A stretch of 38,791 nucleotides of DNA from Pirellulales bacterium (GTDB lineage Bacteria > Planctomycetota > Planctomycetia > Pirellulales > JACPPG01): the NCBI GenBank assembly GCA_035546535.1, contig DASZWQ010000197.1, positions 1 to 38,791 of the forward strand, given 5' to 3'. The position numbers and the translations under genes were made by a program. The notes under the pieces were generated by a model. That model was not told where the DNA came from, did no database searches, and saw nothing but the letters and a program-made list of their open reading frames with translations. Shown piece by piece: positions 3,612 to 10,295 of the stretch; positions within the stretch are counted from its first letter, which is position 1, and each line of letters begins with the position of its first letter.

Positions 3612-4160
3612 TCACGCTCCCAGGAGCAACTCCAAATAACTGCGCCGCTCGGGGGCCTGCAGCCTTAGCCGCTTGGCCAGGCTGCCAAGAGCCGCGCGGG
3701 CGGCTGGTAGCATGGCTTCGTCGGCCGTTAGCTCGATCTCGCAGAACTGTCCGACCCCTTCGACGTCGTCGAGCGCTACTTCGCTCGCCCATCCCTCCCA
3801 ATCGAAATGGGCCGTTCGCCGCCGTTTGCGGACCGTGGCCACTTCGCGAAAACCGAGAGCCGCGAGCAATTCGGCAAATTGGTGCGCTCCTTCGTCGCCG
3901 GACGGGATCGCTAGTTCGATCTCGCGGCGGGTCTTGGTCGTGGCGTCAATCTTCGGCCCTTTGTAGGTCACGAAGTTCTTCTCACCGACAGAACGGATCC
4001 GCAATGCCTCGTCGGTCTTTGCAAAATCGCGCCCCGGATGATTGAAATACCGATCGGCCTGCGTCACCGCGGCGCCTACGATCGCGCCCAAATCCGCAAG
4101 CCGCGCTTCGCATGCCGCCACATCGGAAAGCGGGAACTTTTGCTCGACTTCGTAATTCAT
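3612..4160 (-). CDS. CYTH-domain protein (class IV adenylate cyclase / triphosphatase type)
   Basis: 182-residue cytoplasmic protein of the CYTH superfamily, whose members act on triphosphates (cAMP synthesis from ATP in CyaB-type enzymes, hydrolysis of thiamine triphosphate or inorganic triphosphate in others). The diagnostic ExExK motif is E4-V-E6-Q-K8. Further charged strands follow as expected: ALRIR, TYKGPK, TRREIE, RKRR and FCEIE. Length fits single-domain bacterial members. The ATG at 4160 is the only start that keeps the motif at the N-terminus; no good Shine-Dalgarno is visible. It lies 89 bases downstream of the methyltransferase, on the same strand as the thiamine-phosphate synthase fusion, which makes a phosphate-ester role connected to thiamine possible but unproven. 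Confidence 0.85.
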   Translation of the reverse strand: MNYEVEQKFPLSDVAACEARLADLGAIVGAAVTQADRYFNHPGRDFAKTDEALRIRSVGEKNFVTYKGPKIDATTKTRREIELAIPSGDEGAHQFAELLAALGFREVATVRKRRRTAHFDWEGWASEVALDDVEGVGQFCEIELTADEAMLPAARAALGSLAKRLRLQAPERRSYLELLLGA

Positions 4161-4249
4161 GCTAGCTTAGCAGGCGAGATGCCGCTCCTCGATAGTTTCG
4201 TCGTGCTCAAGACAGCTCCGGTCGGGCGCGCCTGAGACTGCCCGCTCTT

Positions 4250-4987
4250 CTACGTCTTGCGCGCCAGACAAGCGGTCCAGCCCGCGGGAAATTTGAACGC
4301 TGCGTAATGATTTAACTTGCCCGCCCGGAACCCTGCCTGCTCTAGCTGCTTCAGGACGATTGCCGGCGCGATCAGTTGCAGCTCATGCACCTCGTGGTCG
4401 CGACGATACGTCGCACCGCGGCGACGAAATGTTGTGATCGTGCGTGTAAGCCGTCGCCGCAAAGGATCTTCCGCGGCCTCGTAGAGACACGTCCAATCGC
4501 CTGTCTCGGTAAATCCCCGCGTCACTTTCGCCGGGCCGGCGCGACCGGGCCCAGCCACATCGAACAGGAAGAGTCCGGCCGGCGTCAGGGCGTCGTACAC
4601 GCGACGAAAAAAAGCCGACAATCGCCGCTCGGAATTCTTGACATCGAATAGATAGTTGAAGACCTCGCCGATCGCTACCACAGCCACGGCTCGCGGCAAC
4701 CGCGCGCCGAGGAACGAGCGGGCGTGGAATTTCCCTTTCGGAACGCGCTTTCGGGCGAGCGCCACCATTGCAGTCGAAATGTCGAAGCCGACGACATCAA
4801 ATCCGGCTTGTGCGACCTTTTCGGATAGAATTCCACTTCCACAACCGAGTTCCACCACCGTGCCGGCCGTGACCTTCGCGCGGTCGAGCTGCCCGAGCAA
4901 CTCATCGGCCGCTGAGTGGGCCAGGCCGCCAAAGCCGGCATCGTGGATAAACGCCAGATCGGCGCGATAGGCGTCACGAGCGATCAC
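4250..4987 (-). CDS. Class I SAM-dependent methyltransferase
   Basis: Predicted 245-residue cytoplasmic methyltransferase. Motif I, VVELGCGSG, is at about residues 44-52; the acidic ribose-binding position follows in VVGFDIS. The post-motif segment (IGEVFNYLFD, then LFLFDVAGPG) matches the class I Rossmann fold. The substrate is unknown. The GTG at 4987 follows GAGGTGAGA at a normal distance; the frame is open to a TTG at 5044, which has no Shine-Dalgarno and lies 15 bases after the stop of the upstream gene, so the start is uncertain by 19 codons. The short spacing to the ClpN-ThiE gene suggests cotranscription. Confidence 0.85.
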   Translation of the reverse strand: MIARDAYRADLAFIHDAGFGGLAHSAADELLGQLDRAKVTAGTVVELGCGSGILSEKVAQAGFDVVGFDISTAMVALARKRVPKGKFHARSFLGARLPRAVAVVAIGEVFNYLFDVKNSERRLSAFFRRVYDALTPAGLFLFDVAGPGRAGPAKVTRGFTETGDWTCLYEAAEDPLRRRLTRTITTFRRRGATYRRDHEVHELQLIAPAIVLKQLEQAGFRAGKLNHYAAFKFPAGWTACLARKT

Positions 4988-5059
4988 GTGTTCTCTCACC
5001 TCGACGTTGTTGATCACATCGGCATCGAGCTTGCCGCGATACAAGTACGAGAATCTGTG

Positions 5060-6733
5060 TTATCGCGCGGCTTTCAAACGCCGAACGAACTCGGCCGCCG
5101 CCTGCACCGGATCGGCGGCGGCAACAACGGCTCCGCTCACGGCAACCCGCGAGAATCCGGCCTGCAACACTTCGTCGAGGTTCGTCAGGTCAACACCGCC
5201 GATGGCAAACGCCGGCAAGCGAATTCTCGACGCCACATCGCGAAGCAACTCTACACCAGTGAAAGCTTCGAATTGCTTGGTTTTCGAGGGAAAAGTCGGT
5301 CCAACGCCGATATAGTCGGCTCCCTCGAACACCGCCTGGTGGGCTTGGGCGAGCGAATGCGTCGAGCGCCCGATTAGCGCCCGAGGTCCGAGGATGGCCC
5401 GCGCGGCCGAGATCGACAGATCGTCCTGGCCGAGATGTACGCCATCGGCGTGCGCGGCTGCGGCAATATCCGCGCGGTCATTGATGATGGCAAGAGTGCC
5501 ACGGGCCCTGGTACGCGCCTGCAAAAAGACGGCCCAGGCGAGCAGTTCCCGATCCGTGAGTTTCTTGTCGCGCAACTGAATCATGCCCACACCAGCCGCG
5601 ACTAGCTTGTCGACGAGTTCCGTGAATGCCAGTAAATTACCGCGGCAGCCGTCGATAAGCACGCACAGCCGTACCGCTTCGAGCCGCTGGGCGATCGATT
5701 GCGCTGCGTCAACCGCCTGTTCCAGCGTGTACGCGCGATAGCGAAGGCGCTCGAATATCGCGGCCGTGTCTGGTTCAGTAACCTTCGCGTATTCTTCCAG
5801 GCTGCGCAATGCCTCCTGCAGCCGTTTCCAGTTCGCCGTTAGCACGGCTGCGAGATCCGCCCGCTCAAATTCGGTATCGGTGGCGATCGTGATGCCGACG
5901 TCGCGGAGCGTGTCGCGGGAGGCCAACATGTCACCGTGCGCAAATGGCTGGAGCGCTCGCGCCAGCTCGTGCCGCAGGTGCTTGAGCTCGCTCGTCAGGT
6001 CTCGATGGTCGAGAACCAAACGCACGAAATCCTCGACGACGCGCAAGCCCTCGCGGGCTCGGTTGGCCGCCGCGTCGATCACACGCAGCAAACGGGCGTC
6101 CAAGTGTGGAGCGTGTGTTGTTTCGGTAATCCTTCTCCCCTCACCGGAAGAGGGTTGGATCGAGGGAGTCTCCCCATCGTCGGAGATTTGTTCACTGGCA
6201 ACTGCACCGCCACGAGCCGCAGCCAGCACCTCGGCCGCGACTTCTTCCACGGCTTCTGTGGCGGCGTCACGAATCTCGGGACCGGCGTCGAGCGCGACCG
6301 GTCCCGGCTCATGCCCATAGAGGTCGTGGATCTGCTTTTCGAGCTCGTCGGCGCGGAGGCCGTGCTCGGCGAGCCAATCGGCGGTCTCTCCCGGGGCCGC
6401 TACGAGTCCGAGCAGCAAATGCTCGGTCGCCAGCGCCAAGGGGCGCGGATAGGCCCAGAGTCGATCGACGGCCGCATTGATGGCCGCGGCCACGGCGGGA
6501 GAAAAATCACGCCGCGCGCCATTGGCGCTTGGCTGCAGGCTGGGCCAACGCTCTTTAACTTGTGCCTGGCCCACGCCGCGCGTTAGCAGCATCTGCGCGG
6601 CGCGGCATTCTTCCTCGGCCAGGAGGCCCAGAAGCAGCTCGGGCGCATCCAATTCGCCACGATCGGCGCGACTGCTCCAGCCGGCAGCTTCGGCAAGCGC
6701 TCGTTCGGCGGCGGCGGTAAACGACCAGGTCAT
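5060..6733 (-). CDS. thiE: Clp N-terminal domain fused to thiamine-phosphate synthase
   Basis: One uninterrupted 557-residue frame. Residues 1-142 form a Clp N-domain made of two repeats (FTAAAERALAEAAG..LLLGLLAEEE; FSPAVAAAINAA..EHLLLGLVAAPG). Residues 145-208 are an acidic, low-complexity linker. Residues 210-345 match the helical domain found ahead of ThiE in long thiamine-phosphate synthases (NRAREGLRVVEDFVRLVLD, LKHLRHEL). Residues 355-557 are ThiE, with IQLRDK, IINDR, HADGVHLGQDD, IGVGPTFPSKTK and FAIGGV all intact, so it should join HMP-PP and thiazole phosphate to make thiamine monophosphate. No AAA+ module is present. clpC, with a similar N-domain, lies 1 kb away and is divergent. 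No Shine-Dalgarno is obvious before the ATG. The enzyme half is certain; what the Clp domain does is unknown. Confidence 0.92.
   Translation of the reverse strand: MTWSFTAAAERALAEAAGWSSRADRGELDAPELLLGLLAEEECRAAQMLLTRGVGQAQVKERWPSLQPSANGARRDFSPAVAAAINAAVDRLWAYPRPLALATEHLLLGLVAAPGETADWLAEHGLRADELEKQIHDLYGHEPGPVALDAGPEIRDAATEAVEEVAAEVLAAARGGAVASEQISDDGETPSIQPSSGEGRRITETTHAPHLDARLLRVIDAAANRAREGLRVVEDFVRLVLDHRDLTSELKHLRHELARALQPFAHGDMLASRDTLRDVGITIATDTEFERADLAAVLTANWKRLQEALRSLEEYAKVTEPDTAAIFERLRYRAYTLEQAVDAAQSIAQRLEAVRLCVLIDGCRGNLLAFTELVDKLVAAGVGMIQLRDKKLTDRELLAWAVFLQARTRARGTLAIINDRADIAAAAHADGVHLGQDDLSISAARAILGPRALIGRSTHSLAQAHQAVFEGADYIGVGPTFPSKTKQFEAFTGVELLRDVASRIRLPAFAIGGVDLTNLDEVLQAGFSRVAVSGAVVAAADPVQAAAEFVRRLKAAR
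6131..6170. repeat. REP-like palindromic tract inside the fusion gene linker
   Basis: On the minus strand CCCTCTTCC and GGTGAGGGGAGAAGG form an imperfect dyad, flanked by CTCCCTCGATCCAA. It resembles the dispersed CCCTCTCCC/GGGAGAGGG elements of many GC-rich genomes. Here it is read in frame and supplies linker residues around 190-203 (SIQPSSGEGRRITE). Copy number elsewhere cannot be seen from this window. Confidence 0.4.
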
Positions 6734-6968
6734 AGGCGGACTAGATTGGCAAATCGCGAGGCAGACCGCAAATCGTTTCTCTCTCTCGAATTATCGCTCC
6801 TAACCGGTGCGGAGGGAGCGGCGCGTTGCCGGATTTCAGCGGCCTCGCCCTCGCCGGATGCGGAACCGCCCTAACCCCAAGCCGGCCCTTTAGTTGCCTT
6901 GCTCCAATAACCACTACGAGATACAATTCCGCGGCGAATGCAACCGGGTAGAAAAGGAGTTCTCACCC

Positions 6969-7613
6969 ATGCGCGGCCTGCGATGGGCTATCTATTTGTG
7001 GCCCGGATTAGCCGACCTGTGGTGGCACGGGGCGTGGTCGGGACTGGCGCTGGCTAGTTCCTATGCCGTGCTGACCGGTTTGTTGCTGGCGGCAACCCTG
7101 GTTTGGAACGAGCTATTGGGCCCGAACGTGGGCAGTTCGCTCTGGGGGGCTTACGCCGCCGCGTGGCTGGCACTTTTGTTTGTTTCGTTGCGAACCTCAC
7201 CGCGAGCCAAGGAAGCGCAACTCGCCGGTGCCCGCGACTTGTTTCCCGCAGCCTTGGCGGAATACTTAAGGGGGAACTGGCTCGAAGCCGAGTTGCTTGC
7301 GCGCAAGCAGATCGCCGCCTTTCCATCGGACGTCGAATCAACGGTCCTGCTGGCAGCCGCCCTGCGACACAATAACCGCTTCGACGAAGCCTACGAAACG
7401 CTCGATGTGGCGGCTCTGTGGGAGCGGGCCGAGAGCTGGAAGCTGGAGATCGACAGCCAATACCGGCGGCTCACGGAAAAGCAGAGCCGTCTGGCCTTAG
7501 AAGCAGCGCCTGCCAAATCCCTTGCGGCATCGGCGAAAACCGAAACGGAACACAAAGTGCAAGAGTCTGAGGAATCAGCAAAAACCCTGCCAGAATGGCG
7601 CCAAGCCGCCTGA
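6969..7613 (+). CDS. Membrane protein with TPR-like region, unknown function
   Basis: 214 residues, family not recognised. The N-terminal part holds about two membrane segments (roughly residues 18-45, GLALASSYAVLTGLLLAATL, and 53-70, WGAYAAAWLALLFVSL). A helical region follows whose pattern (LRGNWLEAELLARKQIAAFP, then LAAALRHNNRFDEAYETL) looks like one or two tetratricopeptide repeats. The tail is charged and probably disordered. The ATG at 6969 is preceded by AAAGGAG at 9 bases; the frame opens earlier, at 6894, but without supporting sequence. It lies 156 bases upstream of clpC on the same strand, so a role in protein quality control at the membrane is conceivable, not shown. Confidence 0.75.
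   Translation: MRGLRWAIYLWPGLADLWWHGAWSGLALASSYAVLTGLLLAATLVWNELLGPNVGSSLWGAYAAAWLALLFVSLRTSPRAKEAQLAGARDLFPAALAEYLRGNWLEAELLARKQIAAFPSDVESTVLLAAALRHNNRFDEAYETLDVAALWERAESWKLEIDSQYRRLTEKQSRLALEAAPAKSLAASAKTETEHKVQESEESAKTLPEWRQAA

Positions 7614-7769: not shown

Positions 7770-10295
<2,526 letters not shown>

Follow-up and report, generated by a model that had tools for sequence, protein, structure and literature searches.

A Clp N-domain fused to ThiD2-ThiE as a form of thiamine phosphate synthase found across Planctomycetia

The window, a 38,791-nucleotide stretch of the genome of a Pirellulales bacterium (assembly GCA_035546535.1, contig DASZWQ010000197.1), encodes in a single frame a Clp N-domain (Clp_N), a variable linker, a ThiD2 domain and a complete thiamine-phosphate synthase (ThiE), and the same architecture was found across the class Planctomycetia. 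Clp N-domains are docking arms of AAA+ unfoldases or stand-alone partners. Across the class Planctomycetia, such a domain is a regular component of a key enzyme of vitamin metabolism. This suggests that vitamin B1 synthesis and protein quality control are linked there in a way not yet described. The parts are each known; neither a fusion of Clp_N to a thiamine synthase nor such a combination as the thiamine phosphate synthase of a whole class was found in the open-access papers searched, most subscription papers being outside that scope.

The fusion protein contains a complete double Clp_N fold

The features of the locus are listed below.

5060..6733, minus strand: whole fusion ORF (Clp_N, linker, ThiD2, ThiE), 557 amino acids plus stop, ATG start
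6308..6733, minus strand: Clp N-domain, residues 1-142, with four-helix repeats at about 1-65 and about 73-142 (Pfam, phmmer, AlphaFold2, VIA)
6098..6307, minus strand: linker, residues 143-212, mostly predicted disordered, variable in length (model and genus alignment)
5699..6097, minus strand: ThiD2, residues 213-345, HMP-P kinase family PF17792 (Pfam, 136 bits)
5063..5686, minus strand: ThiE, residues 350-557, thiamine-phosphate synthase TIM barrel (TIGR00693; structure matches 1g4s and 3o63)
6966..7613, plus strand: small gene, TPR-like, lying between thiE and clpC, context only, conserved at most Pirellulales loci
7770..10295, plus strand: clpC, 841 amino acids, divergent neighbour, context only, conserved beside fused and unfused thiE

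The Pfam models of Clp_N, ThiD2 and TMP-TENI matched residues 101-138, 217-339 and 369-536 of the one frame 5060-6733. The Clp_N match (PF02861) scored 27.6 bits against a cut-off of 20.7, and Pfam alone detected just the second Clp repeat of the window's fusion. With phmmer, residues 4-141 aligned over the whole N-domain of B. subtilis ClpC (2y1q, E 2e-6), and Pfam matched Clp_N (E 0.1 or better) in 27 of the 28 relatives that were aligned. The AlphaFold2 model of residues 1-142 alone (pLDDT 93) showed the predicted eight-helix double Clp_N fold, with the two four-helix repeats characteristic of PF02861. The structural matches of the modelled domain were the N-domains of ClpT2, ClpC1, ClpC and ClpB (VIA Z 15-16), with ClpT2 at the top (Z 16.2, rmsd 2.7 over 131 residues) and the ClpC1-NTD at Z 15.5, and the best match in a PDB profile search was S. 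aureus ClpC (E 2e-24), with mycobacterial ClpC2 matching at E 1e-14. In the AlphaFold2 model of the full-length protein, residues 143-158 and 175-209 were unstructured. The AAA+ ATPase modules of ClpC/Hsp100 unfoldases were not detected in the fusion ORF by Pfam.

These results bore out what the first-pass annotation had read from the letters alone, namely a two-repeat Clp N-domain at residues 1-142 (phmmer alignment and eight-helix model), free of any ATPase (Pfam) and joined in one frame to an intact ThiE (Pfam, NCBIfam and fold models). The intervening part had been described as a ThiE-associated helical domain; the domain is indeed present, but it is more than a helical domain, as it belongs to the ThiD2 family of HMP-P kinases.

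Clp_N proteins lacking an ATPase have precedents. Plant ClpT1 and ClpT2 belong to the plastid ClpP complex; they share with the fusion the Clp_N fold without ATPase, ClpT2 being the closest fold, but are not fused to an enzyme. Mycobacterial ClpC2, likewise a Clp_N domain without ATPase and unlike the fusion without an attached enzyme, serves as a sponge for cyclomarin and also represses the gene that encodes it (PMC10030653).

An internal start codon separating ThiE from the Clp domain was considered but not supported, as the linker has no conserved in-frame start. There was no ATG in the linker of the window's fusion or in those of 26 of 42 relatives, and the start codon directly before the Clp domain aligned in nearly all relatives. 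The architecture recurred in more than 100 related loci, which excludes an assembly error.

The C-terminal part is a predicted HMP-P kinase and TMP synthase

Residues 208-555 matched the thiamine phosphate synthase equivalog PRK02615 of NCBIfam (376.7 bits, cut-off 335), and the ThiE equivalog TIGR00693 scored 179.6 bits against a cut-off of 145.1. The ThiE substrate motifs QLRDK, NDR, GQ, STH and TK were intact in the window and invariant across the aligned relatives, and the ThiE part matched the structures 1g4s and 3o63. The ThiD2 family model PF17792 scored 136 bits, its cut-off being 23.5; no solved structural relative of this domain was found by sequence. Because phosphorylation of HMP-P, though not of HMP, is reported for the ThiD2 family (PMC12345177), the protein is a predicted kinase-synthase combining HMP-P kinase and TMP synthase.

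The C-terminal 350 residues of the fusion correspond to a ThiD2-ThiE protein of the PRK02615 type, known from cyanobacteria and others. The cyanobacterial homologues align to the window's protein at about 40-43%, and their loci differ from it in having no Clp_N. The fusion was the only ThiE found in the genome (assembly 97% complete). No canonical ThiD was found there: two PF08543 matches were weak and partial, the better one being a ribokinase. The fusion therefore appears to be the genome's sole HMP-P kinase and TMP synthase.

The fusion is distributed class-wide

ThiD2-ThiE was found in 184 of the 196 genomes of the Pirellulales order searched. From these, we chose 64 loci for reading, comprising all frames long enough for a fusion and short ones as a contrast; Clp_N was present in 42 and absent in 22. 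Nearly all of 113 genomes from other orders of the class had ThiD2-ThiE frames of at least 486 amino acids, and 38 of 40 loci that we chose from these orders carried Clp_N (37 by profile and L212 by reading), L235 and L238 being the two without it. The 24 ThiD2-ThiE loci read in other classes of the phylum all lacked a fused Clp_N. Named records with the fusion included Thermogutta sp., Gemmatales, Isosphaeraceae and Planctomycetes bacterium Pan216. The search for the same domain order proposed in the first-pass annotation thus placed the fusion throughout the class and in none of the 24 loci outside it.

Two further loci were of note. At L041 the fusion was cut at the contig end (7067), and the missing Clp_N half opened a second contig of that genome (G045:C198:6-164), with clpC next to it. 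At L268, from another class of the phylum, a 757-amino-acid ORF joined ThiD2-ThiE to about 410 unassigned N-terminal residues in which no Clp_N was found.

The fused domain is constrained but has lost ClpC-specific residues

Within the genus, Clp_N is under purifying selection and as constrained as the enzyme domains, while the linker is not. Identities among four species were 65-76% for Clp_N, 62-72% for ThiD2 and 63-67% for ThiE vs 16-29% for the linker, and pN of Clp_N was 0.13-0.24 vs a pS of 0.48-0.70. In the relative L050 (4427-6124) the linker was made of simple repeats (EEGRGE.., SPLPSPLTPVPSPLTP), which suggests that linkers may lengthen through repeat expansion. An 89-base probe of the linker, searched as a dispersed repeat, matched only itself in the genome.

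Phosphoarginine reading by the ClpC N-domain involves both glutamates E32 and E106 (PMC12583610), and planctomycete ClpC retains the functional residues of the ClpC N-domain that were compared. Residues were counted in 109 fused domains of the main type (type A), 40 from the Pirellulales order and 69 from outside it. The equivalents of E32, R9 and K85 were almost always replaced, K12 was changed to R in 104 domains, and the T7 equivalent was T or S in 106. The E106 equivalent was kept in 81 domains (38/40 within the order, 43/69 outside), and the T7/E106 equivalents were retained in 38 of the 40 Pirellulales forms. With E43 and R45 a new signature appeared; as R11, E42 and R44 (R12, E43 and R45 in ClpC numbering) it was conserved across the class. 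The fused domain thus resembles the ClpC N-domain (B. subtilis, S. aureus, M. tuberculosis; a PF02861 pair) in fold, in T7 and, within the order, in E106, but differs in the absence of AAA+ modules, in the loss of E32, R9 and K85 and in its own R12/E43/R45 signature.

No type-A domain kept both E32 and E106. Among the fused domains, the pair was present only in those of L063 and L069, where retention of ClpC sites was not above background (P 0.11). The loss of most ClpC-specific residues (E32, R9, K85) argues against a plain copy of the ClpC docking surface and, judged from these replacements, the main-type domain does not mimic the surface of ClpC. The TEH motif of the fused domain may be structural. 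It also occurs in the ClpB N-domain of this genome, and E106 alone is therefore no sign of phosphoarginine binding. With E106 kept in just 43/69 domains outside the order and E32, R9 and K85 lost, phosphoarginine binding would not be class-wide.

The domain was lost repeatedly and probably re-acquired

On a tree built with FastTree from the ThiD2-ThiE part, the fused/unfused label required 14 changes as compared with a mean of 31 after shuffling (0/500 as low). The simplest reading is that the fusion was gained at the base of Planctomycetia and then lost repeatedly in Pirellulales, since Phycisphaerae and cyanobacteria outside the class are unfused and nearly all non-Pirellulales members are fused. 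This repeated loss shows the Clp domain to be dispensable in many species. Loss by gene fission was rejected: among the matches listed in 57 genomes, no type-A Clp_N was seen apart from ThiE, the fusions scoring 83 bits or more, whereas the matches ranked after them, ClpB-sized frames, reached 77.5 at most. As to the origin of the type-A domain, the PDB profile search favoured ClpC; scores within planctomycete genomes slightly favoured ClpB among the matches listed in the 57 genomes.

The fused domains of L063 and L069 were ClpC-like, with 64% and 57.5% identity, respectively, to the ClpC domain of their own locus, as compared with 27% in the window. They lacked the type-A signature and grouped with ClpC N-domains at a support of 100, and L063 was placed among unfused relatives in the ThiE tree. 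Based on the ClpC-type sequence, this grouping and the missing signature, Clp_N was probably re-acquired from ClpC in these two lineages. The reading does not draw on the AU test and is kept at probable because that test did not reject a tree holding all fused domains together as a single origin (p 0.33). The adjacent clpC could have supplied both domains; planctomycete ClpC N-domains had a mean identity of 96% to that of the window.

The neighboring clpC gene is an old feature of the region

The proximity of a divergent clpC had been taken in the first-pass annotation as a cue to the role of the fusion, and this did not hold. Among loci of the order with enough flank, divergent clpC lay upstream of 24/34 fused and 20/22 unfused genes, and of 7/38 fused genes elsewhere in the class. 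As clpC is as frequent beside unfused thiE, adjacency and fusion are separate traits, and adjacency as a functional cue was rejected. The clpC adjacency is an old feature of the region that says little on the fusion.

No TPP riboswitch or other Rfam RNA was detected in the window at the gathering threshold, no CIRCE heat-shock element was found, and no sigma-70-like promoters were recognized by consensus around the divergent region. Methyltransferase and CYTH genes (window 3612-5044, minus strand) lay closely 3' of thiE on the same strand, and the CYTH gene remained near thiE in many relatives. At L121 (6612-7502, minus strand), a 297-amino-acid protein with about three Clp_N-type stretches and no ATPase was encoded between clpC and the fused thiE.

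Clp_N as a putative docking module and alternative explanations

Our leading explanation, put forward tentatively, is that Clp_N serves as a module for protein docking and ties the genome's sole HMP-P kinase/TMP synthase to a partner from the ClpC-McsB system or to a thiamine enzyme. Clp_N on its flexible tether would hold the bifunctional ThiD2-ThiE on that partner, most likely one that a ClpC-type N-domain can recognize, such as an McsB/phosphoarginine-marked or partly unfolded protein, or ClpC itself. One candidate for such a marked or unfolded protein is an enzyme acting earlier in thiamine synthesis, for instance ThiC; Arabidopsis THIC was enriched in a CLPC1 trap (PMC8889267). Docking would couple the flux from HMP-P to TMP, or the turnover of the enzyme, to the state of proteostasis. 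In the window's genome mcsA (166 amino acids) and mcsB (360 amino acids) lie side by side (L250:4404-6101, minus strand) and clpS is present; the presence of McsA and McsB makes a link of the fusion to the ClpC/McsB system possible. The McsB family occurs in 186 of the 196 genomes of the order and, being near-universal, makes its co-occurrence with the fusion uninformative. We infer docking from the single ThiE, the confirmed Clp_N fold, its constraint and class-wide conservation, the probable re-acquisition, the confinement of the type-A domain to ThiE among the matches listed in 57 genomes, the presence of McsA-McsB and ClpS, the T7/E106 retention in the order and the THIC enrichment. Against it stand the loss of E32/R9/K85, the patchy E106 outside the order, the TEH motif in ClpB and the repeated loss of the domain.

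The last of these points would also fit a module acting in cis, with Clp_N stabilising, solubilising or multimerising ThiD2-ThiE and no partner in trans. Such a role, the strongest competitor although unlikely, is consistent with losses that left no obvious substitute (judged partly from the matches listed) and with the disappearance of known ClpC ligand residues. A long, fast-changing and predicted disordered linker apart from the enzyme would, however, be unusual for a packed structural domain, and the same kind of domain, not another, returned in two lineages. Alternatively, the domain may dock on ClpC, or on ClpP like plant ClpT, and mark ThiE for regulated degradation. The closest folds do include ClpT1/ClpT2, Clp_N proteins without ATPase, and clpC is often adjacent in the Pirellulales order, but the adjacency does not track the fusion, and R9 and K85, which are reported as an anchor or as mutated positions in the resting state of the ClpC N-domain, are lost. 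This leaves self-targeting improbable.

Loss of the same residues, together with E32, also speaks against a decoy role, in which the free domain would draw ligands or peptides away from ClpC. Mycobacterial ClpC2, a Clp_N protein without ATPase, provides the precedent (PMC10030653), and in structure the fused domain closely resembles the N-domains of ClpC and ClpC2; with just 27% identity to the window's own ClpC domain and no evident reason for a sponge to be located on ThiE, we regard this role as highly doubtful. If Clp_N were a neutral relic, left by an old gene fusion and without a role today, this would account for the many losses in Pirellulales, but it is very hard to reconcile with the strong constraint within the genus, the new conserved R11, E42 and R44 signature across the class and the retention of the domain in 38/40 loci of other orders.

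Returning to docking, a bolder form would have B1 synthesis read a signal of protein damage, either McsB phosphoarginine or thiamine enzymes that have unfolded, through a link rebuilt from clpC at least twice after loss; we consider this form rather unlikely. If the domain does dock a partner, it would offer a direct handle on the coupling of thiamine synthesis to protein quality control and a natural system for finding the ligand of the Clp_N fold once freed from ClpC. As planctomycetes carry McsA/McsB, the question is testable in cultured species.

The genome of the window also encodes a stand-alone double Clp_N protein of 161 amino acids (L098:4708-5190, minus strand), which is ClpC-like, keeps both E32 and E106 and is possibly a ClpC2-like partner.
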